Origin: Prostheceraeus crozeri
Lineage: Eukaryota; Platyhelminthes; Polycladida; Euryleptidae
Length of the DNA: 64,000 nucleotides
Assembly (NCBI GenBank): GCA_907163375.1
Contig: CAJQUW010004458.1
Location: 248,001-312,000, forward strand
Direction of reading: 5' to 3'
How positions within the stretch are numbered: the stretch's first letter is position 1; each line of letters opens with the position of its first letter. This document shows, in pieces, positions 227 to 61,269 of the stretch. A model generated the notes under the pieces. It ran no database searches, was not told the origin of the DNA, and was given only the letters and a program-made list of their open reading frames with translations. Position numbers and translations under genes: made by a program.

Positions 227-3200
227 TCAGAATGAAATGGTATGGTTTCATAATTGGAAATGATTTTGAAGCTGGTTGAAGGACTGCACCGTCTGCACCC
301 CTATAGGGAAAGACTTAGCGGAAAACACGTAATAAAGGAAAATGGTAATGTGATCAAGCAAAATTTATATCAAATTTGTATGAGTAAAATTTTACTTCGT
401 AAAGGTCGATAAATGATTCTGATAAAGGTTTCTTCTGATATTTGCTTTGTCCTGTCTCATCTGCAAAATAGCAAATGAGAAGGCAATCACTTACTGATTC
501 AGAAGAAAGCTAGCTCAATTTCACTATTTCATCTTTCACTTCCCGTACTGATGTCACTAAGTACATTGCAAAGCCAAATATCCGGATCTTATCGCTTGCA
601 GACGGATGAGTTTTCAGTCTGATTAACAATTTTCGCGATCAAGTATCGTGTCCTCGCTTCAAATACTTTCAAAATTGGTCGAACATTTCAGGTCCGAGTG
701 GTATATAGATCATGGAAGGCAGTCGATCAGTTGTACAAAAATACTGATTTCAATATACTTACTTATCTAATGTTCATACAGAACATGTGACATGGATCAT
801 TCACCAGTGAGATTTAACTGATGACATTTCAAAAATATTTAACTGACGTAGAAATTGTTTGATTTATTTGTTGTTGGTGCGGCGTTTAAAGGCTATGCAT
901 GAGTCATCTTCAGTGTAAAATCATGTCAGTGCGTTAGCTAAAGAAGTATAAAAATACATTTACATTTGCAAATTATGATTAACTGATAATGATTTTACTG
1001 TCACTCGTATGGTAATCATGATAATAATTATAAAAGGATTCATCATTAATAGTGCATCAATAATGACAAAGCGGACTAAGCTCATTCTTGTATAAAAATG
1101 GAAAATGTATAATATTTTCTGCATAGACGCAGTATGTACAATATGCAGATGACGTATCATTTTTTAGCCACTAAATTACGTGAGCATTTGGCGTCTAGTC
1201 AAATGCACTATCTAAGTATGATAACCAATCAACCAATATAATGCTAATTACGACAAGGATCCCATTAGATCAATTGGCTGTTATTTTTTTGGAGCGCTGC
1301 ATTTTGTTTGAAAGTGTGCAATATATCACATCAATGAATTCGATGCGTTCCACATCTATGTAAGCGTCTTTATTGTGTTTTCATCAAAGCTATGCTTCAG
1401 TTGCATTGATCTGAACTAGATGTCTGCAATCTTGGTAAATTTACCTTCAACGACGCACGAACGCGACTAAACAATTTAAAGTGGATTAAAAGTTCAGTCA
1501 AAGGGTCAAAGGGTTGTGGATGTGTACGATATAACAAAAAGCTTTTATCAAATTTTATTTATGACAAACCCCGCTGTGGAAAATGCACTCTATTTAAATG
1601 ACAATAAGCACGAATGCGACACGAATAACACATTAATCCCCTTCCGATAGCGCAATCGCCAATCACCCACGTAAAAAAACCCGGGGTACTGAGGCATCTT
1701 TGTAATTTACTATATTTTCAACTAGCAGTAGGCCTATATGATGCACTAAGTATTTCAAGCCGTTTTCATTTTCATGCATTTAATGACGGCGATGACATAC
1801 TACAGCGTTCACTATGACTTAGAGGTTAGATTAAAATATTCCTAAAGCGTATGAATTTTAGCACAGAGTATCTGAGAGTGTTTAGTAAAATCGCCCATTT
1901 TTAGAGGATACAACTCGTATACAACTAATCATTTAACTGATTGAACATAATATTACAGCGAAATAAACTAACAAATATCACATTTAATTACGGTCTAACT
2001 GAATTTCATGTGTTAGACACGATTTGATTCCTGAGACTCGCACCGCTGAGTTAGAGGTTCCTATTTCGCGCATATTGCCGTAGATATCTATCGACGTCTT
2101 GGTGCATCGAGGTTCCCATCCAGAGCTCTAATATTTAAGTTCTTATTAAGCGCTTGAACGTTCACAATGATGACATATTTGTCATTGACATTAAATTTTT
2201 TTTTAGTGAAGTATTAATAGGTACTAATAATAATGTTGATAGGCATTAGCATTAATTAAGTTGTACTAATGCACGTGTACTTTTTGTATACTATCCGATG
2301 TCCTTTCATTGATTGTTCTCATTTCTTTTGAATTTTTCTAAAAATATCAAAAGATGCCGTACCTCTCAACAAACATAAAAACTCAAAATAAATGCAGTTT
2401 ATTGCCACAAAATTTCCGATGAAGTGATTCGATCGATCGTTGCTGGAATTAGACATCCTTGGAAAGAAAAACTAATGCCGCATCAGGAACCATCAGAGTT
2501 CAACAGGGCAAATCAGTTAATTCCCTATTTATGATCAGGATTATTCTTGTATCGATCTGAAGAACGTTCTACCTCACCGTATGATGAATTATTCAAAAGA
2601 ACATCTTTGGCTTCTTTAATCTAGCAGCACTGCTGTTGTGAGAAAGTTCTTCCAATCGATTGATGAACTTATAAATGGTGAATCTATTGAAGACAATCAA
2701 ATGAAGTCACTGTTGAATGAATGAGTCGCATCATGTTATTTTTATTTCATAAATCGGCTGGTAGTAGGAATGTAAATTATTTCGAAACGCTTCAGTTCAG
2801 AGAGAGTGGGAAAGCGTCGATCGCGTAGAGGGAAGGAAGAAGAAAAAGAGAAACGGGAGAAAGAATAATAGGTGCAGACAATCGGTGTGTTGTTGCCTGC
2901 CTGCTCCTGCTTCTACCCTGTTTCGTCCTTGTCGCACGAGTCGTCTTCCCTCAGGGTGAACTGGTTCGCTCGTCTACGCTGTCCTGCCAAGAAGGCAAAG
3001 CTTAGTTAGGGAAGAACATTTTCTATCCCTCTCTGCCTCGTTTCCCTTCTGTCTCACTTCCCGATTCCAAATTGAAGCAATCCATCGATCATACATCTTC
3101 CCAGCTACAATCCTTTCGCTATCCCTACTTCTCCCCTTCCTAGCAAATAATGCTTTCCTTGTGTTGTCATACAGGCAAGTTAGCGAACAGCACATGTACA

Positions 3201-8841: not shown

Positions 8842-11757
8842 TTTTTTTTACTGAATTTTCACCCCTAGCACAGCTATGAGCCATGAACGAAGCTAGGGGT
8901 TACTCAATGAAAAGTAACAAATTGTATTATTTTAAATAAATTTTAAAAAAAAACAGATCTTCTAATCTGATTAAGCTGTCCCCATCAGAAACCTATTCGC
9001 ACGCCTCTTGAAAGTATCAAGATTGTATTGGTCAGGAAAAGTGGTGTGGAGAAGCTGATTCCAAAGCTGTGCCGTGCGAACAAAATAGCTTTTCGAGCGA
9101 CTCACAGTACGTGCGCGTTCTAAGCTCACATTATAGCATGTGAGTGCATTAGCTCTGCGTGTGCTTCTGGAGAAGATCTTAGGTTTGGGTACGCACTCAT
9201 TTACTGCAGAGCTGCTTCTACCGAAATAGTACCTGTAGAAGAGACTGAGTGAAGCAACATCCCGTCTGACGGAGAGCGGCTGCAACTTGCTAGCAAGTTT
9301 TTCACCCATGAGATTCTTGACACGTTTCTCAACCCATTCAAGGAGGTTAAGATGCGTTTGTGGGGCGCCTGATGACAACAATACTCCATCAGAGGACGAA
9401 TAGTGGACTTGTAAAGATAGCAGACAGTCTGTGGTGGAAGATAGCTGCTGGCACGATAGAGACTACCAATGCGTTGAGCTGCCTGCTTGCTAATGGATTG
9501 GATGTACGGTTTCCATGACAAGTCTTTCGTAACCGCCAATCCAAGGAAGGAGATGGAATCTTGTTCTCTGATCCTATTATCTGACATCTTAATGCTATGA
9601 TCATCATCTCCTTTAAGTCGTGAGTGCAGAATACTCTTGAGTTTTTGAAGGATTGAAGGAAACAAGCCAATTGGCGCCCCATTCTGAGACCCTGTGTAAG
9701 TCTTCATTAAGAACGTCGCATAACTGCTGACGTTGCTGAGTGTTCTTAGCGAGTCGCTCATTGGAATTGAAGAGTGTTGTGTCATCTGCATACATCACCA
9801 ATTTACTCACTAGGCAGTCTGGGAGGTCGTTGATGTACAGCAGAAAAAGAGTGGGTCCCAAAATTGACCCTTGAGGAACTCCTGCATTGACAAACTTGGT
9901 GGAAGACTTTTGGCCATCCAAGACGACAGATATCTGCCGGTCACTAAGGAAAGAAGCAAGAAGTTTGTGGAGTTGATCAGCAACTCCATAGGACTTCAGC
10001 TTCATAAGGAGTCCCTGATGCCAGACTTTATCGAATGCCTTGGAAATATCCAAGGCAACTGATCTCGTCTCACCTTGTCTGTCAAGGACACGACTCACAT
10101 GTTCAGTGACATGAAAGAATATCTGCAGTTTATCGAGAGTGCTTGAAGCCATACTGTTCTTCTGATAGAAGGTTCTGAGTTTCAAGGAAGTTAACAATGT
10201 GTTGGTTAATCACTGCTTCAAAAATCTTGCCAGCAATTGGAAGCAGGCTGATAGGACAGTAACTAGATGGAAGAGATGAGTCAGAACCTTTCTTTGGAAC
10301 TGGAACCGCGGAAGCTACTTTCCAACAAGAGGGAAACTCACCGGTGGATACACATCTACTGAACAGTTTAGATAAAAGTGGAGAAAGCTCAGGTGAGGGA
10401 TGCTTGAAGACCGAAACCGGGATGCCATCTGGTCCACTAGACTTAGATATCGAGACCGGCGATGATCTTTTTGACGTTTCGGACTGTGACTGAAGGAGGA
10501 CTAACTGTCTCATCAGTGCGCGTGGGAATTGGAGGTGGAATTCTACCTCTATCGTCTAATGAAGAATTATTCGCAAACTCCTTGCAAAGAAGCTCGGCTT
10601 TGTCTGCTGAGGTTGTCGCCATAGAAGTACTGACTTCCGCATGACGGAGTGCTGGGATGGAGGATTTGTTCCTATTGGTGACACTGTTGTAAATCCTCCA
10701 GAAGTCCTTAGAGCCAAGCTTTTGGGTAGCAATGGATTTCCGTACATACAAAGCGTAACGGCTTTTGGCCTGATGTATGGTTTCCTTGCAATGTCTACGT
10801 GCGGTTTTGTACAATTCAAGATTGCCAGCGCTACTGTCACGCTTATACTTATGGAAAAAGTGGTCACGCTGGCAACTTGCAGCTGCACATTCTGGTGTAA
10901 ACCAAGGTTGTGAGTGGGGCTTCATTTGGAAAGTACGGTGATGAATGTAGGCCAACATCCCTATCTGAAGCCACTCTGTCTGTCAGTTCTTGCGCCGACT
11001 TGTGGACGTTCTCCCTCAGAATCAAATTCTCAGCTTGAACTTGACTAAGAAAAGTGCGGAAGCCACACCAGTCTGCTTTGAAGGATTGATAGACTTCTAT
11101 GGAAGGGTGCAGACGGTATGGAGCAAATTTGTTTGCCAGAAACTGTGATAGCACAGTGATCAAACGTGCCGAGGGGAGAAGTAACCTTGTGTGAAAAACA
11201 AGTTGGATTTGAGGTGAGAAACAGGTCAAGGAGATATCCAGTATCCCCAGTTCGGTCAGGCACTCTGGTAGGACAAGTGACAATTTGACAAAGGTTGTGA
11301 GAGACAGCGAAATCCTGGGCTGCCTGACCGGAGAGATCGGTGGTGCGTGAGTGCACAAGCCAGTCAACATTGTGCACGTTGAAGTCACCAAAAACGGCAA
11401 CTTCAGCGCTGGGATACTCTTGTAGAAGAGAATCGATCTTGTCAGAAAGAACATTGAAAATATCCTACGAAACCTTCTCAAGGGAAGGCTTGTCTTGGCA
11501 TAGACTCCAAGACCATGACAAGGTGCTTTATCCATCCGGTGAAATATGTATCCATCAGGATTAACGTCGCTTGATGACACAATGGGATCTAACCTGTTTT
11601 CCGACAGGGCTAGAAGATCTGGTGACTTACCTTGCAGGAAGATGTTGATGTCGTCGTAATTGGACCTCAGTCCTCTTACGTTGCTGAAGCTGATCCTGAG
11701 AGGGGTTTTGAGCTTGACGGCTTGACTACGTTTCTTGTGTGTCTTTCTCATTTTCAT
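8842..11757 (-). mobile_element. Non-LTR retrotransposon (LINE) copy, endonuclease plus reverse transcriptase, decayed
   Basis: On the minus strand, pieces of one LINE ORF occur in order but in different frames. First is an APE-type endonuclease (about 11757-11045, with ISFSNVRGLRSN and a late FDHCAITV). Next is a linker and reverse-transcriptase fingers (10958-10130, SSGPDGIPVSVF). Then comes the palm (10197-9613) with ALDISKAFDKVWH, GVPQGSILGPTLFLLY and the catalytic YADD at 9792-9781. Last is the C-terminal region (9791-8971, LFYRYYFGRSSS). At least five frame changes separate the pieces, so the copy is inactive. The 3' end is marked by an oligo(A)8 on the minus strand (8842-8849). It lies antisense in the PKA intron. 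It belongs to the Jockey/CR1/I group of LINEs in the broad sense; I cannot fix the clade. Confidence 0.88.
8861..8900 (-). other. Stem-loop in LINE 3' UTR
   Basis: Nine-base perfect inverted repeat ACCCCTAGC / GCTAGGGGT enclosing 22 bases, ending 11 bases before the oligo(A) tail of the LINE. A terminal stem-loop at this position is the usual place for recognition by the element's own reverse transcriptase. Confidence 0.6.
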
Positions 11758-12345
11758 AATTTCTCATAGAATATCAATCAAATAAACGAAAATTATACTG
11801 TACAACAAAGTGATACAAGAAACTTTGGAAGGCATCAGAAAAACGTAAATAATAGCAACAAAGCTGCAATAAATAATACGCAAAAAGACACTTATAGGCA
11901 CAGTTCATGTCGCAAAAGCTTGAAGAAACCCAAATGAGAACCCCTTTGCCGTAACAATGGGTACAAGTCAGGTAGGCCACAGAGGAACCGGATACAGCTA
12001 CACGGGCTAAACCCCTCAGTAAAGCTACCCACGCATGTCCGTGGCAGTGGAACTGTACCGCCTTTGTTAGAGCAATTGACCGGGCCTTCCTCCCAAAGCA
12101 TTACCAGTGGGTTCGGGACCCTCGAACTACCTGATGCCCGTATGCCGTGAATACGTTGGATCTGTCACACCTTAACCTGCAACAAACGGGAAAGTGCAAA
12201 AGAGAGCAGTGGATCTCAAATGAGCCAAATAAGTGCCATGCCCAAAAACCTGATTCAACAACATGAAACATCTGATGACTGTTCATATCTCGCAAACCAG
12301 GGGGTGGTGTTAATTGGGACGGCCGAAGCCTACCACGCATTTAAA
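11758..12345 (-). other. Probable 5' region of the LINE
   Basis: Moderately GC-rich sequence directly upstream (in element sense) of the endonuclease frame. Three short minus frames (11774-11980, 11892-12101, 12101-12340) have no recognisable motif. Base composition and position suggest untranslated leader or a decayed first ORF of the LINE, but this is inference. Confidence 0.35.
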
Positions 12346-15557: not shown

Positions 15558-17829
15558 CAGTCTTCCCAGTCAGGCGCGAATTTTGCCATCAGAGGCGCGA
15601 ATGCGCGAATTCTGTGGGCAAGGCGCGAAAATATTTGAATGAAATGCGCGAATTTTGGGACAAGCAGATTATCAGATTTCAGTAAAAACTCTCAGATTTA
15701 TTAACATGCAAGTTTGCTGTACTTGTCCTAGGAACACAATTTATTGAAAAATGCATGTTTATTACTTTCAAAATTGCTACTCTGCATGAATATGACTGAA
15801 TGTGATTATTGACTTATCACTATTTTCTGATTTCCCATGCTCTGCGCTCGTATAGATATCCTATTTCCTGTTTATCGTTGATGACCTGCTGCCCATTTAA
15901 GCTTTTTCCGCACATGCAGCAATTGATATTTAGCAATGAGCAGCACATAATTTTTATCGGCAGTTTCACGGAAATAAAGGAAGCTGTCTTCCTACGCCCA
16001 GTTGATACTCGGTGGTTGCAAATTGTTTCCGTCGTGGAGCGTGTGCTACATTTATATGAACCGCTGGTTGAGTTCTTCACAAAGCAGACCAGAAGAGGCA
16101 CAAGTTCTATCTTCACATCTATCCAGGAAACACTGAAAGATCCAAAGGTGAAGTTTTTTCTTCTCTTTCTCGCAGAGGTTTTGAAGCCATTGGAAGAATT
16201 CGAATTACTGTTCCAAAGCGAAGGCACCCAAATTCACATTCTTCACAGTCGTATTGTTGCACTGATGAAGCGCTGGCTCCTCTGCTTCATGAGACCACGC
16301 AAGCTCACTGACAAAATTTGGAAGCTTGATTTGGCAGACGCTTCTGTATGGCTTCCACCTTATGAAATGTCAGTCGGAGAGCCTACAAAGAGTTTGTTTG
16401 CAGATCTTTCAGTGAGTGATCAGCAGGCGTGTCTCTCATCAATGAAATCCTTTTTCAAAGCAGGAACACAGAAGCTGAAGGACTATCTGCCGTTTTGCAA
16501 TAGCTTCTTGGTTGCTTGTCAGATGCTTGATCCGAAGCACCAAAAGCATCCCAACTTCGTGAAATGGGTCGGAAATTTGGCGCGTTGTCTACCCAATGTG
16601 TTTGCTGACACAGAGATCGGCAGCTTGGAAGTCGAGGCTCGCCTGCAGCAGACTGAATTTAAAATCACTTCTATTGATGACAGCGACGTACTTGACTTGT
16701 GGAAGAAAGTTTCAGACGACAACAACAGGTCTCTCCTGACTCGACTCATCCGTGCGCTCCTTGTCCTGCCTCACGGCAATGCCGAGGTCGAGCGTGTGTT
16801 TAGTTCACTGAACGACACGGTGACAAAGAAGCGCTCACTACTCAAGCCAGCCACTGTCAAGGCACTGATTGTGTCGCGTTCCTGCATGGAATCAAGGAAG
16901 TGGACTCCAGCCTCACTTCCTGTGACTGCATCCTTGATTAGCATGTGCAATAGTGCCCACGCTTCCTATCGCCAAAGATTAAAAGATGAAGCAGCAGAAG
17001 AAGAAACGAAGCGTGCGAAGGAATTGGAGGCATCTCTTATTGCCGAAGTCCAGATAGAAAAGAAGTGCAGCAAGCGGATTTCGAGTCTCGAGGAGGAGCT
17101 GTTGCAGAAGGAGAAAGAAATCGAAGCGAAGTTGAAAGAGAAGGAGGCAGCTCACCAGTTGTTGCTCAGCGCACACAGAGCAACTGCCAGCCGTGACGAA
17201 GAGATTGAAGCTTTGCGGAAGGTACAGGGGCAGCTACAAAAGAAAAGGGAAAAATGAATCGGTTCGAGTAACTCAAAACGTTCTAAAACGGAAAGCCTGT
17301 GAAATGGCAATGATCGGCTTGTCCAAGATTCCGAAGAAGGACTGATGTATATTTAGATACTTCAATGCTTTATTGGACAGCCGTGTGTTTCATGAATTTA
17401 CGCTTGCTGCTCACTAATAGTTGTTTTCCACTCGTATTTTCCATGGGTGTATGAGGTTCTGTTGTTTCTGATGCTGCATTAGGTACAATCCGCCTAAGAA
17501 GACCCGCAGGGCCATCCACGCGGTCCGTGGAGATTGCTGAAAAATAGGCATCTGAATCGCACAAGTAAAATCAAACCTCTCATTATGATGTCTGAATATC
17601 AGTTTTGAATAGGTATTATTGATTAACTTAGCTGTTGTTTTTTACAATTTGTTTTTTGCTAACATGGTATGTGGCATGTTTCCCAGGAATAGTAGTGCAC
17701 GATGTGATCATGCTGAAGTAGTAGGTGAAGAGTTGACCCCACGATTGCTAGTCTCCTAAGTCATTTCAGTTAGGCGCGAAAATTTTCACCAGGCGCGAAA
17801 AATTGCGCCACTGCCGACTGGGAAGACTG
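15558..17829 (+). mobile_element. hAT-superfamily DNA transposon, complete insertion
   Basis: The 2272-bp insertion is bounded by perfect 14-bp terminal inverted repeats, CAGTCTTCCCAGTC, and flanked by an exact 8-bp target duplication TGCTGATT (15550-15557 and 17830-17837). The 8-bp duplication is the hAT hallmark. Inside the left end are five GCGCGAA motifs (15574, 15595, 15603, 15623, 15646); the right end has two (17774, 17793) and a related GCGCCA. These are likely transposase-binding subterminal repeats. The element carries one transposase frame in the same orientation as the kinase gene. It is shorter than autonomous hATs, and the transposase lacks its N-terminus, so it is probably a deleted copy. 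Confidence 0.93.
15809..17257 (+). CDS. hAT transposase, N-terminally truncated, with C-terminal coiled coil
   Basis: A 482-codon open frame begins at a TTG; recognisable homology starts near residue 53 (SFTEIKEAVF, then RWLQIVSVVERVL). It follows the layout of ZNF862/KIAA1586-like hAT transposases (recalled family resemblance): an RNase-H-like core with its helical insertion, then the dimerisation motif LPHGNAEVERVFSSLND at about residues 320-336. From about residue 385 to the end it is a charged coiled coil (KRISSLEEELLQKEKEIEA, EEIEALRKVQGQLQKKREK). That tail is not part of the usual hAT ending. The BED zinc finger and the first catalytic residues are absent, so the protein is probably inactive. 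It could also be a domesticated fragment, but the intact TIRs and target duplication argue for a plain transposon. Confidence 0.85.
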   Translation: MTYHYFLISHALRSYRYPISCLSLMTCCPFKLFPHMQQLIFSNEQHIIFIGSFTEIKEAVFLRPVDTRWLQIVSVVERVLHLYEPLVEFFTKQTRRGTSSIFTSIQETLKDPKVKFFLLFLAEVLKPLEEFELLFQSEGTQIHILHSRIVALMKRWLLCFMRPRKLTDKIWKLDLADASVWLPPYEMSVGEPTKSLFADLSVSDQQACLSSMKSFFKAGTQKLKDYLPFCNSFLVACQMLDPKHQKHPNFVKWVGNLARCLPNVFADTEIGSLEVEARLQQTEFKITSIDDSDVLDLWKKVSDDNNRSLLTRLIRALLVLPHGNAEVERVFSSLNDTVTKKRSLLKPATVKALIVSRSCMESRKWTPASLPVTASLISMCNSAHASYRQRLKDEAAEEETKRAKELEASLIAEVQIEKKCSKRISSLEEELLQKEKEIEAKLKEKEAAHQLLLSAHRATASRDEEIEALRKVQGQLQKKREK

Positions 17830-46361: not shown

Positions 46362-46921
46362 GTGAAACTGTCGAATTTAAAAATTGACTGTCATCCCACA
46401 TCATGAGATGTACAGATGAATGGTATTGCTCTTGTGTTATTCTTTTGGACTACTGTATTACTTTCGAATCTGCTTAAACAATGCGGGACACAAGGGAGGA
46501 AGATACCTAAGAAGTGCACTTAAATTGACAAGTTAGATATCAGGCAGATTTTAGTGATAAATTTAAAATATCTTTATATAAGTTGAATTAGCAAAAATGA
46601 TTGATCATTTTCTCTCCTTATGTCTGAAGTCCATGATGTTTGTGAAACTGTCGAATTTAAAAATTGACTATCATCCCACATCATGAGATGTACAGATGAA
46701 TGGTATTGCTCTTGTGTTATTCTTTTGGACTACTGTATTACTTTCGGATCTGCTTAAACAATGCGGGACACAAGGGAGTAAGATACCTAAGAAGTGCACT
46801 TAAATTGACAAGTTAGATATCAGGCAGATTTTAGTGATAAATTTAAAATATCTTTATATAAGTTGAATTAGCAAAAATGATTGATCATTTTCTCTCCTTA
46901 TGTCTGAAGTCCATGATGTTT
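46362..46921. repeat. 280-bp tandem duplication
   Basis: The unit beginning GTGAAACTGTCGAATTTAAA at 46362 starts again at 46642 and ends near ATGTTTGT at about 46921. Only a few substitutions are visible (for example CGAATCTG versus CGGATCTG and GGGAGGAAG versus GGGAGTAAG). It is non-coding and a recent segmental duplication. Confidence 0.93.
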
Positions 46922-49485
46922 GTTTTAAGATTGTGATTTATTTCTTCTGTTGAAAAAGAGATAAAATGGAGCGAGATTCACTCATTGAAATAATCCAAAT
47001 CCATTGTCAATCAGTAAAATGATAAAGGACTATTGACGAGGACTGCTTTGACGCGTCTTTCCATAATTAAAGACAATCACATAACTGCTGTTTTTACCCA
47101 AGATACAATGACGATCTTTAGATATAATTGAATGACATGCCAGACAACTGTGGTGATGTTCAATCTAGATCTGTGTGTTCAATACACATTCACATACGGC
47201 ATTTTGCGCTTGACGGATGTAGACAGCTCAGCGAACAAATGATGTCATTTCACTGTCGATGAATGAAAAACATTGATTATTAAAATGTGTCTTCCAAATG
47301 CGGAAAAATTTTATGAGCGCTTTGTACAGTAAGAATTATGTATTGATCATTTGATGGATTAGATGAAGAACAAGTTAATCTCATGATAGTCCTCCATTAT
47401 GCGTGTATAATAGCACATGAATTACTTAGTAGATAATTATTACTAGTACATGAATAGCCGGAATATCAATGGAGTCCGACAGCTCTGGCTGTAAAATTTA
47501 AGTGATATTTTTAATTCCTCGATGTAACAGATTCCACCTTTAATGCCTACTTACTATTGCGCTTCTGCTTTAAGTTGACTTACATCACAAGTCCCCTATT
47601 AGCTACGTGAAAGATGTTATTTACACATTCTTAAATTAAAATTTGAACGCTGCTATTTATGTGATAAAGCACTCCGGAGAAATGAGGTGCTCACTTAAGA
47701 AATCACAACAATGAACTCGACATGACATTGTCCAGAATCTCTAGATAAACGAGAAGAGGAACACTGAAGCTGCCTTCCACTTGAGCTGGTCAAACGTTTG
47801 AGACGGTAAAAGTGCAGATCTTTATCTATTGCGTGACTAAGTCAAGTAATTTACTTCATCATGCCTGCCATATCAAACTTGATAAACTGAATGAAAATCT
47901 AAAGTGATTATATAATCAGCTGGCGAATTTTGTCCGGGCTTGTGTTGAAGTATATGTGACATATGCGAAGCACTAATGTTTTCAGATGATCGAATTCAGA
48001 TACACCATCCCATATGTCGATAGTCGATGAATTTGCAGTTTGTGACAACGATTATGTCATCTTGGTCTACATGAATTACTTGCGTGTGTAAATCGGATTT
48101 AATAATGTGGATTAGCACTCAGCAACCGATGTGTAGCAAAAATAAGCGCACATTCAATTCTTAACATCTTCAATGGAGGATCGAGACTTTTGAGATAGGC
48201 AGCCGATGTTCTCGTACAAAATGTTTATGAGGAAACTGTCTCATAGAAAGTCTCAAAATAAAATTCAAATGACAGACGCGCTCTCAGAAGTATCTGAAAC
48301 CTACAGTTCTGCTAAAATTTAAGCAGTAATATCAATGGCCTCAGACAGCTTGAAGGAAGGCCTAGTAATCTTGACATGCTAGAGACAAACGATCTTCCGG
48401 TTAAATTTTTAATAGAAAAATAGGTTTTTGAAGCAACTTCGAATTTTTCTCACTTTTTTAAATTTTATTTTGCAACTGAACCCGTTTTAATTAAACAGAG
48501 TTTCAGAACCATTTTGTGAAAAGACCATTTTGAGGAACCGGACAACATCGAATTTGAAGCGTCAAAATGACACCACTAAACCTACTATATAAGCTAATTG
48601 TGTATAGAGAAAGAGACATTTTTACTGCAATTATTCAGGCAAATTGTTTTGGCCAATATGTCCATTTATCACAAATCAAAATGCTAGATTATCAGGAATG
48701 ATTATAATCAGTTTCAGTGTGATCTGCGTTCTGCACTAGGTTGCTGGAAGTACTCACTCCAGAAGATAACCGTGTGTAGTCATCAGTTAGTCATACTGGG
48801 TTTTCGAAAGAGCTCATTTAGTACAAGAATAAAAGCTCGAATAAATCAGGATAAGCTACATGTAGACCATTGATTTTTGATGCATGAAATCATGCAGACC
48901 TATACCGGTGATCTTGCTTAGTTATTTGAAGCAAGTTGTCTTCGTGAACATCTCCCAAGATTCAAAAGCCATAGTTTAGTGTTGTTCGTTTTATTAGTCA
49001 TAAACATGCTTGCATATTGGGTATAATACACTAATGCCGCTTGTGATTGCACCGAATTCGAAATTACATTCAATGAGAATGAACTACGATTCCACACGAT
49101 TAGTGCACACAAGCCGCACGGCATTTACGATTTCATGGATAGTTGCGGTGGTAATATCGATTGCAGTTTCGCACTTGATTGATCAATTAAAGTTTAGTCT
49201 GATTGAATTAAGGTCATTGCCACTGGTAGATTGGAGAAGCATCCATGAAAATGTCAGTCTTTAAATAGGTCATTTATCTCAATCAATTTTTTATTCTGAT
49301 CGAGGTAAATAATTTTTTATACGGATATCACTGTTAGAGTCGTATACCTAGATATAACTGTGCGATCCATTCAAACTTGCAGGCGATTGTTAAACTTTCC
49401 ATGTTATGAATGCATTTTCAGTTTAGAATTGTTTTCTCACGAACGACTCCAGAGGCGACGGATCGGATGAACTATGCGTTATCAA
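46922..49485 (+). other. PKA-C intron 7, no recognised gene
   Basis: AT-rich non-coding DNA; no feature recognised. Confidence 0.4.
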
Positions 49486-50406: not shown

Positions 50407-51776
50407 GGGTTCGACAAAAAAAGTGCGTTTTTTGTAATCAACATCTATTTATCCAGACAATCATTCACATCACAGATAGTTACCATTTTCCTCTATAACT
50501 TTCTCAATATGCCACTGGAATTCATAAAACTCCTTCTGTAACTGGGTGATGGTCATTCCAGCAAGAAATTGTTCAATACATGCCTCAATTTCAGCAAATG
50601 AGTCGAAATTGCGTTGACGACGATGAACTTCAAAATTTCTGAAGACATATCGATCGAGCAAGTTGTAATCTGGTGAATAAGGGGGCTGTTTCACAAGACT
50701 CATGCCTTCGTGGTCGATCCACCGTCGAACCTGCATTGCTATATGTGGTCTTGCATTATCATGCTGGAGACCCATCTCCCAACGAGGTAAATTGAGTTGC
50801 TGCTCGAACGCTGCACACATGTTTTGCAGGAATGACAAATATCGATCACCATTTATGCTTCCACCATCATGCAGCACTTCGGTATAGGAGAATGACTTTG
50901 CATAATTGAGATCAACCATTATTAAGACCTTCCTATCGGCTATTGTCCTGCGCGATACTTGAGGTCTGTCGCCTGCGCGATCGACCCAGACTCGGTTGCA
51001 TTCCTTGGGTGGGATGCTTTTGTAGTAGACCCACTTCTCGTCCACGACGACAAGTTTACTTTTGATTTGCCGACGTCGCAAGGTTTCCAAAATGCTTCTG
51101 TCATACTCAATACGTTGCTGCTTATTTCGATCACTCAGTTCATGCGGTACCACTGACAACACAAGAATTTCTTATTCAGATGATGAGAAAGTATCCGATG
51201 AACTGCCCTCTCCTCAACACCTGTCTGCAGTGAAATGTCAGCACAGGATAAGTGGTTGTCATCTTCGATTACTTCTTTTACCTCTTCGATGTTTTCATCA
51301 CAGCAGCTTGATCGTGGTCTTCCAGATCCTTCCTTTCGTGTCACCGTTTCACGTCCCTCGACGAACTCTCTTACTATTGCTTGAATTCTTCTCACCCTAA
51401 ACATTAGCAAGCAGCTGATGAATTTTTGTTGCTGAGTAGCCATTTTGAGACAGTGTTCGGATGAAGAAGTAGACATCACACTGCTGAAACTCCATGACTA
51501 TCAGGAAAGAAAATTGGATGATTGATTAAGAGCATATCTTATGTCTATGTTCGGAGATAGTCGGAAAGCACTCTAGAGACATGACGATCGGGAATCAAAA
51601 ATACACTATGTTTATATCTATGATTCCAACATTAAAGCGTATGCAGTGCAGAGAACAATGCCATAGACATTGCCTTTGAATAAAACTTTCATGAACTTTT
51701 AAATGAACACAATCAAACACCATTAAATCTAAAAAATCGAAGGCTGTAGAAAAAACGGAGTTTTTTTGTCGAACCC
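50407..51776 (-). mobile_element. mariner-family DNA transposon
   Basis: The 1370-bp insertion has terminal inverted repeats starting GGGTTCGACAAAAAAA. The two ends differ at 3 of about 29 bases. TA dinucleotides flank it (50405-50406 and 51777-51778), the standard Tc1/mariner target duplication. It carries a transposase on the minus strand with a single frame interruption, so it is a young copy. It lies antisense in PKA intron 7, about 660 bases before exon 8. Confidence 0.93.
50470..51479 (-). pseudogene. mariner transposase (DD34D), one frameshift
   Basis: An N-terminal frame (51479-51135) encodes the helix-turn-helix part with GSGRPRSSCCDENIEEV. It overlaps a second frame (51162-50470) starting MLSVVPHELSDRNKQQR. 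A one-base indel near 51150-51165 joins them logically. The catalytic triad is complete: Asp41 (VVVDEKWVYY), Asp135 (LQHDNARPH) and Asp170 (PYSPDYNLLDRY), numbered in the second frame. Thirty-four residues separate the last two, which defines the mariner DD34D class. Apart from the frameshift, no stop codons interrupt it. Without repair it cannot make full-length transposase, so this copy is non-autonomous. Confidence 0.92.
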
Positions 51777-56085: not shown

Positions 56086-57313
56086 CATTTTCGAATTCTA
56101 TGATACGAAATTTAAAGACCCAAAAGTGCTCTTCATTCTTGAGTTTCTGTCGTTAATTTGAACTGCTTTTTCAGAAGAGCGACTGCCATGTCTCCGAACT
56201 TCATGACCATCTCGTACATCTCTTTGAGCGATTGTTGCTTCGTTTTATGAAGGGAGAAAAGCTTCACTTAATGCGCTGGAAGACTGACATTTCCGACCAA
56301 AGAAGTTTGCTGGGGTGCTACAACTTCGTCATTGGTGATACTGCAAAAAGAACTTTCTGCAATATGAACTCTTCAAATCACGTTATCTTTATCGAGCAGA
56401 TCCGCAAGTTCTACTCGGTCGGAACTGCGAGCCCTTCGGATTACCTACTGGCTGGAAATGCAGTTCTTCAAAACTATCTCATATTGATCTCTATCATTGG
56501 CTCTATCTCCCTTAGCAGAAATCAGGAATGATTCCAATTTTGAGAAATGGGTTTTGCAATTCACAAGTCATCTTCCGAAAGATATTTCCGGGGAGGAAGT
56601 ATCTGACGTGTCTGTCGATGTCCACATATCATTTCCTCGCAAAAGAAGTTGCCTCCACGGACAACACTTCGGCTGGAACAATTGAAAGCTCCCTCAACAC
56701 GAAGTCTTTCTGTTGGAACTCATTGGGCGATAATAGTACAAAGCAAAAAGTGTCCAACTCTGGTAAAAGCTGCGAAAGCTGCTTTTATCCTCCTTCATGG
56801 CAATGCTGAAATCGAGAAAATGTTTTCAATTCTGCCTAATGTTATAACGAAGAATCGACAGTCTTTGTCACCTGATACTGTTAATGCCCTTGTGGTTTAC
56901 AAGTCAATCATGAAGACCAAAAATTGGTCTCCTGAAACTATTCCTATAAATAAGAAATTTGTGAAGCACTTTGTCTGACAGGGCATCATATGAGCAAGCG
57001 AAACGGGATGAGGAAAAGGAGGAAGTGAGGAAAGGACAGCAGGAAATGGAGAGAATGCTTCAAGAAGAGATCTCGAAAGAGAATGAGACCAGCAAACGGC
57101 GAAAAGTTGTACTTGGCGAAGGCAAACGAAAAAAGAAACGAAAAAAGAAGAAATTGAGGGCAAACTCCGAAAAGAATTGGCTTTTTGATTGAGACGCAGA
57201 AGAAAGCAAAAGAGGCGGATGAGAAACTTGAAGCATTAAGAAATGAAAAAGACAAACTCACCGATAGAGAGAAGAAGTTAGACCGAAAGATGGTTCAGCA
57301 AGTCTTCAAATAG
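56086..57313 (+). pseudogene. Second hAT transposase, decayed, with coiled-coil tail
   Basis: Fragments in order on +: KFKDPKVLFILEFLS (about 56110-56155), CHVSELHDHLVHLFERLLL (about 56187-56243), the dimerisation motif LLHGNAEIEKMFSILPNVIT (inside 56649-56978), then a charged coiled coil in other frames. The coil pieces are RKGQQEMERMLQEEISK (56971-57192) and EKLEALRNEKDKLTDREKK, ending at the TAG at 57311-57313. The order and motifs parallel the transposase at 15809-17257, but the sequences are strongly diverged (about 40 percent in the dimerisation block by eye). Several frameshifts and a stop show it is dead. I could not find its terminal repeats. Confidence 0.75.
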
Positions 57314-57952: not shown

Positions 57953-57985
57953 AATTGTAAAAATAACTGTCGAAAATTGGAAATG

Positions 57986-58255
57986 ATATCAATACAAAAC
58001 TGAAACACCCTGACGTATAAAGTTTTTAAAAAACAAACAATTATGCCCAACCGGTTTCACTTGTTTCCAAGCTATTGGAATTATTTTATTCAAAGCTATC
58101 AAATCAAAGGCTTTTGATTTGAATGTACTTCTACTATCTGTAAAGAAAATAGATGTCATTCCACCCATGAATAGCGTGGAAACAAGTGAAACGGTTGGGC
58201 ATAATTATTTGTTTTTATTTAAAACTTTATACGTCAGGGTGTTTCAGTTTTGTAT

Positions 58256-58261
<6 letters not shown>
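57986..58261. repeat. 276-bp foldback directly beside the ribozyme array
   Basis: The left arm starts ATATCAATACAAAACTGAAA and the right arm ends with its inverse at 58261, merging into the TA run. Inner arms contain ATTATGCCCAACCGGTTTCA and the inverse TGAAACGGTTGGGCATAAT. Arms are about 95 bases. The GAAACCGGTT motif recalls the foldback at 49486, but no CTGATGA precedes it. Confidence 0.85.

Positions 58262-58290
<29 letters not shown>
58262..58290. repeat. TA microsatellite, left border of array
   Basis: Uninterrupted TA run between the foldback and the first array monomer. Confidence 0.95.
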
Positions 58291-58294
<4 letters not shown>

Positions 58295-58346
58295 GACAAG
58301 TAACCTGGCAATTGATAAATTTATCAAATCTCAACAGATGTAACCA

Positions 58347-58388
58347 CCACGAGACATGTTTCGGCCTGTTGGGCCTCATCAGTCGTGG
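58347..58388 (-). ncRNA. Hammerhead ribozyme, type I, minus copy 1
   Basis: Read on the minus strand: stem I CCACGA, core CTGATGA (58382-58376), stem II GGCC-CAACA-GGCC, GAAA, minimal stem III ACATGT, cleavage nucleotide C at 58353, and stem I 3' strand TCGTGG. The fold and core match the plus-strand copies exactly. Confidence 0.88.
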
Positions 58389-58649
58389 GTAGGTTTGAAC
58401 CAGCGACGTTGGAGCTAGAGGACGTGCAAGCATACCCTCTAACCACAAGGCCACCGGACCATCTGTTGAGAGCGTGAATTAGCCAGGAAGGCACTGCTTT
58501 AACGCAGGCACGTGGAGGGCGGACTGCTTTCTGCAATCACTTAATACCGCATCCGAGATTGAGGCGCTTCACGCAGGCGCTACTCATTACATGTTTAGAC
58601 AAGTAACCTGGCAATTGATAAATTTATCAAATCTCAACAGATGTAACCA

Positions 58650-58691
58650 CCACGAGACATGTTTCGGCCTGTTGGGCCTCATCAGTCGTGG
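58650..58691 (-). ncRNA. Hammerhead ribozyme, minus copy 2
   Basis: Same sequence as minus copy 1, one 303-bp period away; predicted cleavage after the C at 58656. Confidence 0.87.
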
Positions 58692-58952
58692 GTAGGTTTG
58701 AACCAGCGACGTTGGAGCTAGAGGACGTGCAAGCATACCCTCTAACCACAAGGCCACCGGACCATCTGTTGAGAGCGTGAATTAGCCAGGAAGGCACTGC
58801 TTTAACGCAGGCACGTGGAGGGCGGACTGCTTTCTGCAATCACTTAATACCGCATCCGAGATTGAGGCGCTTCACGCAGGCGCTACTCATTACATGTTTA
58901 GACAAGTAACCTGGCAATTGATAAATTTATCAAATCTCAACAGATGTAACCA

Positions 58953-58994
58953 CCACGAGACATGTTTCGGCCTGTTGGGCCTCATCAGTCGTGG
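58953..58994 (-). ncRNA. Hammerhead ribozyme, minus copy 3
   Basis: Same sequence as minus copy 1; predicted cleavage after the C at 58959. Confidence 0.87.
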
Positions 58995-59255
58995 GTAGGT
59001 TTGAACCAGCGACGTTGGAGCTAGAGGACGTGCAAGCATACCCTCTAACCACAAGGCCACCGGACCATCTGTTGAGAGCGTGAATTAGCCAGGAAGGCAC
59101 TGCTTTAACGCAGGCACGTGGAGGGCGGACTGCTTTCTGCAATCACTTAATACCGCATCCGAGATTGAGGCGCTTCACGCAGGCGCTACTCATTACATGT
59201 TTAGACAAGTAACCTGGCAATTGATAAATTTATCAAATCTCAACAGATGTAACCA

Positions 59256-59297
59256 CCACGAGACATGTTTCGGCCTGTTGGGCCTCATCAGTCGTGG
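59256..59297 (-). ncRNA. Hammerhead ribozyme, minus copy 4
   Basis: Intact core in the monomer that carries the 47-base deletion; the deletion lies upstream of the tRNA-like part and leaves the ribozyme and both pol III boxes untouched. Confidence 0.87.
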
Positions 59298-59511
59298 GTA
59301 GGTTTGAACCAGCGACGTTGGAGCTAGAGGACGTGCAAGCATACCCTCTAACCACAAGGCCACCGGACCATCTGTTGAGAGCGGACAGCTTTCTGCAATC
59401 ACTTAATACCGCATCCGAGATTGAGGCGCTTCACGCAGGCGCTACTCATTACATGTTTAGACAAGTAACCTGGCAATTGATAAATTTATCAAATCTCAAC
59501 AGATGTAACCA

Positions 59512-59553
59512 CCACGAGACATGTTTCGGCCTGTTGGGCCTCATCAGTCGTGG
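59512..59553 (-). ncRNA. Hammerhead ribozyme, minus copy 5
   Basis: Intact core in the truncated monomer next to the array centre. Confidence 0.87.
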
Positions 59554-59865
59554 GTAGGTTTGAACCAGCGACGTTGGAGCTAGAGGACGTGCAAGCATAC
59601 CCTCTAACCACAAGGCCACCGGACCATCTGTTGAGAGCGTGAATTAGCCAGGAAGGCACTGCTTTAACGCAGGCACGTGGAGGGCGGACTGCTGATTTGA
59701 TAAATTTATCAATTGCCAGGTTACTTGTCTAAACATGTAATGAGTAGCGCCTGCGTGAAGCGCCTCAATCTCGGATGCGGTATTAAGTGATTGCAGAAAG
59801 CAGTCCGCCCTCCACGTGCCTGCGTTAAAGCAGTGCCTTCCTGGCTAATTCACGCTCTCAACAGA

Positions 59866-59938
59866 TGGTCCGGTGGCCTTGTGGTTAGAGGGTATGCTTG
59901 CACGTCCTCTAGCTCCAACGTCGCTGGTTCAAACCTAC
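59866..59938 (+). promoter_or_regulatory. tRNA-like pol III promoter (first plus copy; repeated every 303 bp)
   Basis: A box TGGCCTTGTGG followed by TTAGAGG, and B box GGTTCAAACCT, start 52 bases apart, as in a tRNA gene. The T-arm pairs at four of five positions (CTACC after the loop). The segment AGAGG...CCTCT between the boxes can pair. The 3' side of the T-arm runs directly into hammerhead stem I, so acceptor-stem pairing is lost; it is a tRNA relic serving as promoter, not a working tRNA. Other copies: 60169, 60472, 60775 and 61078 on +, and mirrored in the minus half. Confidence 0.78.
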
Positions 59939-59980
59939 CCACGACTGATGAGGCCCAACAGGCCGAAACATGTCTCGTGG
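59939..59980 (+). ncRNA. Hammerhead ribozyme, type I, plus copy 1
   Basis: All conserved parts are present in order: stem I 5' strand CCACGA (59939-59944), C3-A9 core CTGATGA (59945-59951), stem II GGCC/GGCC with loop CAACA and the conserved G10.1-C11.1 pair (59952-59964), G12-A14 plus A15.1 GAAA (59965-59968), palindromic stem III ACATGT (59968-59973), and the GTC triplet with cleavage after C59974. The stem I 3' strand TCGTGG (59975-59980) is fully complementary to the 5' strand. Stem I continues past a small internal loop as AACC/GGTT (59932-59935 with 59982-59985), the place for tertiary contacts with loop II. Stem III is too short for a stable monomer, so dimeric cleavage is likely, as reported for retrozymes. 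Confidence 0.92.
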
Positions 59981-60241
59981 TGGTTACATCTGTTGAGATT
60001 TGATAAATTTATCAATTGCCAGGTTACTTGTCTAAACATGTAATGAGTAGCGCCTGCGTGAAGCGCCTCAATCTCGGATGCGGTATTAAGTGATTGCAGA
60101 AAGCAGTCCGCCCTCCACGTGCCTGCGTTAAAGCAGTGCCTTCCTGGCTAATTCACGCTCTCAACAGATGGTCCGGTGGCCTTGTGGTTAGAGGGTATGC
60201 TTGCACGTCCTCTAGCTCCAACGTCGCTGGTTCAAACCTAC

Positions 60242-60283
60242 CCACGACTGATGAGGCCCAACAGGCCGAAACATGTCTCGTGG
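60242..60283 (+). ncRNA. Hammerhead ribozyme, plus copy 2
   Basis: Same sequence as plus copy 1; predicted cleavage after C60277. Confidence 0.9.
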
Positions 60284-60544
60284 TGGTTACATCTGTTGAG
60301 ATTTGATAAATTTATCAATTGCCAGGTTACTTGTCTAAACATGTAATGAGTAGCGCCTGCGTGAAGCGCCTCAATCTCGGATGCGGTATTAAGTGATTGC
60401 AGAAAGCAGTCCGCCCTCCACGTGCCTGCGTTAAAGCAGTGCCTTCCTGGCTAATTCACGCTCTCAACAGATGGTCCGGTGGCCTTGTGGTTAGAGGGTA
60501 TGCTTGCACGTCCTCTAGCTCCAACGTCGCTGGTTCAAACCTAC

Positions 60545-60586
60545 CCACGACTGATGAGGCCCAACAGGCCGAAACATGTCTCGTGG
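60545..60586 (+). ncRNA. Hammerhead ribozyme, plus copy 3
   Basis: Same sequence as plus copy 1; predicted cleavage after C60580. Confidence 0.9.
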
Positions 60587-60847
60587 TGGTTACATCTGTT
60601 GAGATTTGATAAATTTATCAATTGCCAGGTTACTTGTCTAAACATGTAATGAGTAGCGCCTGCGTGAAGCGCCTCAATCTCGGATGCGGTATTAAGTGAT
60701 TGCAGAAAGCAGTCCGCCCTCCACGTGCCTGCGTTAAAGCAGTGCCTTCCTGGCTAATTCACGCTCTCAACAGATGGTCCGGTGGCCTTGTGGTTAGAGG
60801 GTATGCTTGCACGTCCTCTAGCTCCAACGTCGCTGGTTCAAACCTAC

Positions 60848-60889
60848 CCACGACTGATGAGGCCCAACAGGCCGAAACATGTCTCGTGG
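60848..60889 (+). ncRNA. Hammerhead ribozyme, plus copy 4
   Basis: Same sequence as plus copy 1; predicted cleavage after C60883. Confidence 0.9.
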
Positions 60890-61150
60890 TGGTTACATCT
60901 GTTGAGATTTGATAAATTTATCAATTGCCAGGTTACTTGTCTAAACATGTAATGAGTAGCGCCTGCGTGAAGCGCCTCAATCTCGGATGCGGTATTAAGT
61001 GATTGCAGAAAGCAGTCCGCCCTCCACGTGCCTGCGTTAAAGCAGTGCCTTCCTGGCTAATTCACGCTCTCAACAGATGGTCCGGTGGCCTTGTGGTTAG
61101 AGGGTATGCTTGCACGTCCTCTAGCTCCAACGTCGCTGGTTCAAACCTAC

Positions 61151-61192
61151 CCACGACTGATGAGGCCCAACAGGCCGAAACATGTCTCGTGG
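61151..61192 (+). ncRNA. Hammerhead ribozyme, plus copy 5
   Basis: Same sequence as plus copy 1; predicted cleavage after C61186, 32 bases before the TA run. Confidence 0.9.
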
Positions 61193-61214
61193 TGGTTACA
61201 TCTGTTGAGATTTG

Positions 61215-61220
<6 letters not shown>

Positions 61221-61269
<49 letters not shown>
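61221..61269. repeat. (TA)n microsatellite, right border of array
   Basis: About 25 uninterrupted TA units directly after GATAAAT of the last monomer. Confidence 0.95.

Follow-up and report, generated by a model that had tools for sequence, protein, structure and literature searches.

The 64,000-nucleotide stretch analysed here (the window), positions 248,001 to 312,000 on the forward strand of contig CAJQUW010004458.1 from the polyclad flatworm Prostheceraeus crozeri (assembly GCA_907163375.1), contains an array of 303-bp units, each bearing a type I hammerhead ribozyme. The organisation of this array and of its relatives elsewhere in the genome makes it likely, judging from sequence, that the unit is a non-autonomous retrozyme, an RNA circle of which is repeatedly reverse-transcribed by an enzyme of the Penelope-like element (PLE) type that primes on both strands of a TA-rich target. 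With rather less assurance, each array can be taken as the probable fossil of a single event, in which two reverse transcriptases (RTs) would have been primed by the two strands of a single staggered break and, beginning at two fixed hairpin loops, would have travelled round one ribozyme-made 303-nt circle for up to about 15 turns. The original prediction, made from the letters of the window, had placed the unit among the small retrozymes of animals and guessed at mobilisation by the RT of either a PLE or a long interspersed nuclear element (LINE). The class assignment is supported by 303-bp units with a type I hammerhead, by the lack of any open reading frame (ORF) of at least 120 amino acids and by target duplications longer than 4 bp.

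A tandem repeat search of the window places the 303-bp units at 58291–61224, in agreement with the predicted monomer; ten hammerhead sites, one per unit, lie within them. The array had been predicted to consist of ten copies; ten hammerhead-bearing units are indeed present, but they do not form a simple tandem series. Five lie on each strand, in two arms that meet head to head at 59693/59694 (Table 1), and one minus-arm unit is shortened by 47 bp (period 256 in Tandem Repeats Finder). A simple tandem satellite ranks low as a description of five units per strand placed head to head. The unit has a GC content of 50.5%, and its length and ribozyme fit the range of non-LTR (long terminal repeat) retrozymes, which have type I hammerheads in tandem repeats of about 150–450 bp. 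The window array has no stop-to-stop ORF of at least 120 amino acids, and units at other loci do have shorter open frames. No LTR, primer binding site or polypurine tract was noticed in the unit, no search aimed at them having been made.

Searching the 2.05-Gb genome for the unit gave 450 candidate regions, of which only 39 were scored and all 39 were read, a sample biased towards good matches. These comprise the window array and the loci L031–L060 and L061–L068, with 217 near-full units in all. Unit sequence occurs on both strands in 35 of the 39 arrays, always with the minus arm on the left and the plus arm on the right, that is, head to head. Outer ends, target duplications and the number of TA sites were scored by eye. 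In 29 arrays both outer ends can be read (L044, L050, L058 and L060 run past the stretch examined), and in 27 of these one arm stops at a site termed a, near unit position 11, and the other at a site termed b, near position 40 (range 36–43). The remaining two arrays (L055, L066) have a at both ends, and none has b at both; with independently chosen ends, 27 a/b arrays in 29 would have a probability of about 1e-6 (binomial calculated by hand). The arm that reaches b thus carries a tail, unit positions 12 to 40, of 29 nt. When the unit is folded as a circle, the two sites coincide with the loops of two adjacent predicted hairpins. The stretches read for L047, L052, L057 and L060 also contain part of a neighbouring array; the array to the left of L052, which lies outside the 39, has a plus-strand arm that ends at about unit position 278 (L052 about 300–320), inside the hammerhead and against TA repeats.

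The surroundings and inner joins of the arrays resemble those of insertions made at breaks. TA repeats adjoin 31 of the 39 arrays on at least one side, and six of the eight sites without them have target duplications of 8–16 bp (8–16 bp in L032, 14 in L035, 8–11 in L053, 9–10 in L059, 12 in L064 and 11–13 in L067), the lengths being uncertain by a few bases where target and unit are alike; at the other two, L040 and L058, no duplication could be read. Among the 29 inner junctions examined every pair of unit positions is distinct. They carry overlaps of up to 17 nt or fillers of up to 58 nt, some of the latter visibly copied from nearby (L039, L042), and so have the appearance of end-joining products. 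L067, which has one arm, combines its 11–13 bp duplication with microhomology at the 5' end. The 5' ends of arms concentrate at unit positions 293–10, the foot of a 12-bp outer stem (12 of 54, against 3.7 expected for an interval chosen post hoc; 27 of the 39 arrays were counted, leaving out L040, L052, one-armed copies and L061–L068), which is suggestive, and only that, of RTs stopping at the stem. The two neighbouring arrays of L057 share an identical inner junction (174 to 143) and are probably a segmental duplication.

The units within an array tend to share one sequence in both arms. Variants were scored relative to the window unit, in 31 arrays in a first count and in all 39 in a later one. 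In the first count 110G>T was present in all 16 units of L044, in both arms, and in none of 205 elsewhere; 67G>T in 12 of 12 units of L051 and one of 205 elsewhere; 37T>G in eight of eight units of L048 and none of 236; 127C>A in three of three units of L049 and none of 220; 130C>T in 14 of 15 units of L060 and one of 209; and 211G>A in 14 of 14 units of L050 and one of 233, L061 adding one such unit over the 39. The private variant of L048 extends into the partial unit at the outer end. Taking the 35 two-armed arrays together, 19 non-window alleles are common to both arms, in 13 arrays; when right arms were reassigned among arrays the mean was 1.7, and 19 was reached in none of 20,000 permutations. 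Nine of the 19 belong to sites 17 and 159, which are linked and mark one subfamily; 17C>A and 159A>G are common to five arrays (L053, L054, L058, L059 and L064), and with these excluded ten shared alleles stand against a mean of 0.4 (again 0 of 20,000). Most arrays, including most of the informative ones, thus look as if copied from a single monomer, and the simplest source would be a monomer that both RTs could copy repeatedly, namely a circle.

Insertions of PLE type in the same genome have comparable ends. In L047 (4580–6912) one lies in TA repeats beside a retrozyme array; its head-to-head arms are 97.3% identical over 894 bp, and one is longer by a 34-nt tail. An RT ORF in L049 has 304 relatives, and among the 120 listed most have GIY-YIG and/or RVT_1. 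In the ORFs of this genome both domains score below the curated Pfam cut-offs, and the Penelope name is taken from the domain pair. The ends of the L047 element and of a PLE in L055 (about 1003, minus strand) carry a hammerhead-like motif in which A3 and U8 replace the canonical C3-G8 pair and stem III is a palindrome, ACCGGT. Seven loci scanned with Rfam gave no PLE hammerhead; a relaxed pattern then picked out one, in L055. An older head-to-head pair stands directly to the left of the window array, with a tail of about 36 nt on the left arm only (about 57953–57988) and (TA)n at both outer ends; it has no ORF, and its assignment to PLEs rests on motif and architecture. A low-scoring Rfam match to MIR4208 (58026–58218) overlies this pair and is probably an effect of the palindrome.

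Published PLEs behave similarly. The purified PLE protein PAc acts on both target strands, cutting and extending each, and its reverse transcription starts at two adjacent internal sites, mostly at an AC-rich stem-loop, matching the genomic tail (PMC11167929). Rotifer PLEs have inverted pseudo-LTRs (pLTRs), mostly head to head, optionally with a 31-bp tail on one of them, and only some copies have target duplications, of 8–10 bp (PMC3846280). Several footprints of integration now stand behind the guess of Penelope mobilisation. The arms meet head to head and one of them carries a tail; the outer ends fall at two fixed places, each within a hairpin loop; targets are duplicated; and insertions of PLE type in this genome end in the same way.

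A cycle of the following kind would account for these features. Arm units would be transcribed outward as multimers, perhaps by RNA polymerase III (pol III), and the hammerhead, acting as a dimer, would cut them into 303-nt monomers that are then circularised. A Penelope-type RT/GIY-YIG enzyme would make a staggered cut in both strands of a TA-rich target, and both DNA 3' ends would prime on the same RNA circle, using two neighbouring hairpin loops, a and b, separated by 29 nt. The RTs would each travel round the circle, for less than one turn to about 15 turns, and end joining would unite the two cDNA arms head to head. Since a full circle requires two cleavage sites, rolling synthesis would restore multi-unit arms and so keep the copies productive. 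Circularity, the enzyme, transcription and cleavage are the parts of this cycle that we infer. The element would integrate like a PLE but is not itself a PLE, because the array lacks an RT ORF, having no ORF of at least 120 amino acids.

Several observations weigh against this account. The two arms disagree at 15 positions in eight arrays; most of these positions are in single or partial units, and the four of L031 lie in the junction overlap. The arms of L057 differ in fixed variants, and L052 is heterogeneous. Variants confined to a subset of units (61C>T in two of 18 units of L037, 184C>T in two of 14 of L050, 177C>T in four of five of L047 and 211G>A in one of two of L061) count likewise, because a single template does not predict them. 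Six of the 39 arrays are one-armed or rearranged (L040, L046, L047, L063, L067, L068), two of 29 end a/a, and the end near unit 278 beside L052 is of a third kind, neither a nor b. The 17C>A subfamily loses one pair of hairpin a yet retains a/b ends. The hammerhead scores under the Rfam cut-off, and among the PLEs in the loci read none was seen with the tail or the hammerhead of the retrozyme. With PAc in vitro, hammerhead mutants leave insertion unchanged and unprocessed RNA is the main substrate (PMC11167929); a PLE can therefore do without circles, and its insertion as such without the ribozyme.

The main rival takes up this last point: the template of PLE-type twin priming would have been a linear multimer, transcribed from a homogeneous parent array, and not a circle. 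Multi-unit arms are expected to give multimeric transcripts, PAc takes unprocessed RNA in vitro (PMC11167929), and the presence of 17C>A with 159A>G in the five subfamily arrays looks as though homogeneous parents had bred true. What makes this reading improbable in our estimation is that the variants found in both arms and fixed in essentially one array (L044, L048, L049, L050, L051 and L060) demand either a monomer template or a parent fully homogenised beforehand. Moreover, no mosaic pattern of units common to different arrays was noticed, in a comparison made without a formal test.

Twin priming by a LINE-type enzyme likewise gives inverted arms and target duplications, and the window contains a broken LINE, with pieces of an RT and of an endonuclease, at 8971–11763. 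In LINE twin priming, however, the second arm begins at a variable internal site, whereas here both arms begin at two fixed places; the tail, the one-arm rule and the AT-rich targets fit PLEs and recur in the PLE-type insertions of the same genome. This half of the earlier guess is accordingly disfavoured and a LINE enzyme seems distinctly unlikely.

Self-priming, in which a single cDNA would fold back and be extended along its own strand or along an antisense template to give inverted arms, is preferred for palindromic PLE junctions by the authors of PMC3846280. For the present arrays it has little probability. A few inner junctions (L033, L050 and the first pair of L047) do coincide with the palindrome of the unit or fall close to it, but most of the 29 link unrelated unit positions with no palindrome, and fold-back alone would not yield unequal arms, different outer ends (a, b) and a target duplication.

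Foldback elements also have inverted arms built of subrepeats, and a satellite array could be made by recombination and homogenised later. A foldback DNA transposon or such a satellite is nevertheless very improbable: duplication length varies (8–16 bp), the 29 inner junctions examined all differ, one-armed L067 combines a duplication with microhomology at its 5' end, and the private variant of L048 reaches its outer partial unit. Inverted chimeras are common in amplified DNA, but an assembly or amplification artefact can be given almost no weight where array flanks differ from each other, six sites retain intact duplications and one end rule holds in 27 of 29 arrays.

The ribozyme and the tRNA-like part of the unit bear out the original prediction in part. 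By reading, the hammerhead core (CUGAUGA, GAAAC and GUC) is intact, including the G10.1-C11.1 pair, as had been claimed for a canonical type I ribozyme. It is not fully canonical in that GAAAC and GUC are only two nt apart, which leaves stem III with 2 bp in cis. The sequence concerned, ACAUGU, is self-complementary and would give 6 bp only in a dimer; with so short a stem in cis, cleavage probably requires dimers. A 4-kb scan with Rfam models finds ten HH9 matches, each with E 8.2e-6 and 33.5 bits, all under the HH9 gathering score of 52; scanning the window at the gathering threshold gave no match. The exact core has no match in viral contigs, and phage records gave no match.

The predicted outer stem enclosing the tRNA-like part and the ribozyme is present, at 12 bp in the fold rather than 11, and the unit sequence lacks TTTT as stated. 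Candidate A and B boxes are likewise present, with one mismatch each (A-box candidates start at unit positions 173 and 181, the B-box candidate at 233) to the consensus sequences. The best A/B pair, at one mismatch per box, was equalled or beaten in 15 of 1000 dinucleotide shuffles, the candidate A box has T where tRNAs carry A14, and ARAGORN found no tRNA. Transcription by pol III from these boxes is no more than plausible.

Table 1. Features of the array and its borders (window coordinates).
Feature	Position	Strand	Remarks
Older head-to-head PLE-like pair, directly left of the array	57953..58261		Arms 93.5% identical over 93 columns; hammerhead-like motif similar to that of L055
(TA)n target, left flank	58258..58290		
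Minus-strand arm, five hammerhead-bearing units	58291..59693	-	Outer 3' end at site b, unit position 40 (...CTTGTCTAAA, then TATATA)
Hammerhead, minus arm	58333..58398	-	Rfam HH9; further minus copies start 58636, 58939, 59242, 59498
Head-to-head junction	59693..59694		Minus arm starts at unit position 106, plus arm at unit position 1
Plus-strand arm, five 303-bp units	59694..61219	+	Outer 3' end at site a, unit position 11 (...GATTTGATAAA, then TATATA)
Hairpin a, palindrome TTGATAAATTTATCAA	59697..59712	+	Unit 10-13 unpaired loop; putative reverse-transcription start (a)
Hairpin b, TTACTTGT-CTAA-ACATGTAA	59721..59740	+	Unit 36-39 unpaired loop; putative start (b)
Outer stem, 12 bp (59856-59867 with 59987-59998)	59856..59998	+	RNA fold, z -5.0; encloses tRNA-like hairpin and ribozyme
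Candidate A box TGGCCTTGTGG, one mismatch	59874..59884	+	Overlapping one-mismatch candidate starts 59866
Candidate B box GGTTCAAACC	59926..59935	+	One mismatch to 11-nt consensus
Type I hammerhead, first plus copy	59929..59994	+	Rfam HH9, below gathering score; core from 59945; predicted cleavage after 59974
Further plus-arm hammerheads	starts 60232, 60535, 60838, 61141	+	Rfam HH9, below gathering score
(TA)n target, right flank	61220..61269		

Other elements lie nearby. The broken LINE of the window (minus strand) consists of RVT_1 and Exo_endo_phos_2 pieces. The window also contains a piece of hAT transposase (15806–17257, plus strand), a second hAT-like stretch recognised by eye (56157–56978, plus strand; the part tested had no Pfam match), a piece of DDE_3 transposase (50470–51171, minus strand) and two head-to-tail copies, 98% alike, of a 280-bp unit (46362–46923). 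In L059 a 634-amino-acid ORF (1298–3199, minus strand) matches DNA_pol_B_2 and perhaps belongs to a Polinton-like element.

PLEs have been regarded as strong candidate movers of animal retrozymes, since both have type I hammerheads and tandem copies and they co-exist in the animals analysed, and tandem cDNA made from a primed circle has been proposed (PMC7229834). The present arrays allow both ideas to be stated as sequence rules that are open to test: arms stand head to head, each of two adjacent loops supplies one end, and each array has one template. If the account given here is true, they would be direct genomic evidence that hammerhead circular RNAs are the retrotransposition templates of animal retrozymes, with Penelope-type enzymes doing the work, and would suggest why PLEs have a tail on just one of their inverted ends. 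No description of arrays of such architecture was found among the titles and abstract openings of open-licence PMC literature.

The metazoan non-LTR retrozymes share with the unit tandem repeats of about 300 bp, a type I hammerhead, no long ORF and target duplications longer than 4 bp, and are expected as circles of 170–400 nt (PMC7229834). The GC content of the unit exceeds the value of less than 50% stated for them, and the parts consulted of that paper make no mention of arms set head to head, of fixed a/b ends or of a single template for each array. Plant LTR retrozymes are likewise mobile elements with hammerhead-made circular RNA, but have a type III hammerhead, a length of about 700 bp, LTR features and proposed Gypsy machinery (PMC7229834). 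The tRNA-like A/B box candidates are a feature of the present unit in comparison with the metazoan retrozymes. The schistosome SMalpha element, which PMC8490949 names, has been called a short interspersed nuclear element (SINE)-like repeat. Like the unit it is short and has a type I hammerhead.

The closest parallels in integration are with PLEs, which also have head-to-head inverted ends, a tail of about 30 nt on one arm, target duplications and AT-rich targets (PMC11167929, PMC3846280), two adjacent internal start sites with a start within a stem-loop (PMC11167929) and hammerheads with a minimal stem III (PMC7761336). The unit differs from them in being 303 bp long and free of RT and endonuclease ORFs, and in the circle proposed as its template, which PAc does not need in vitro.

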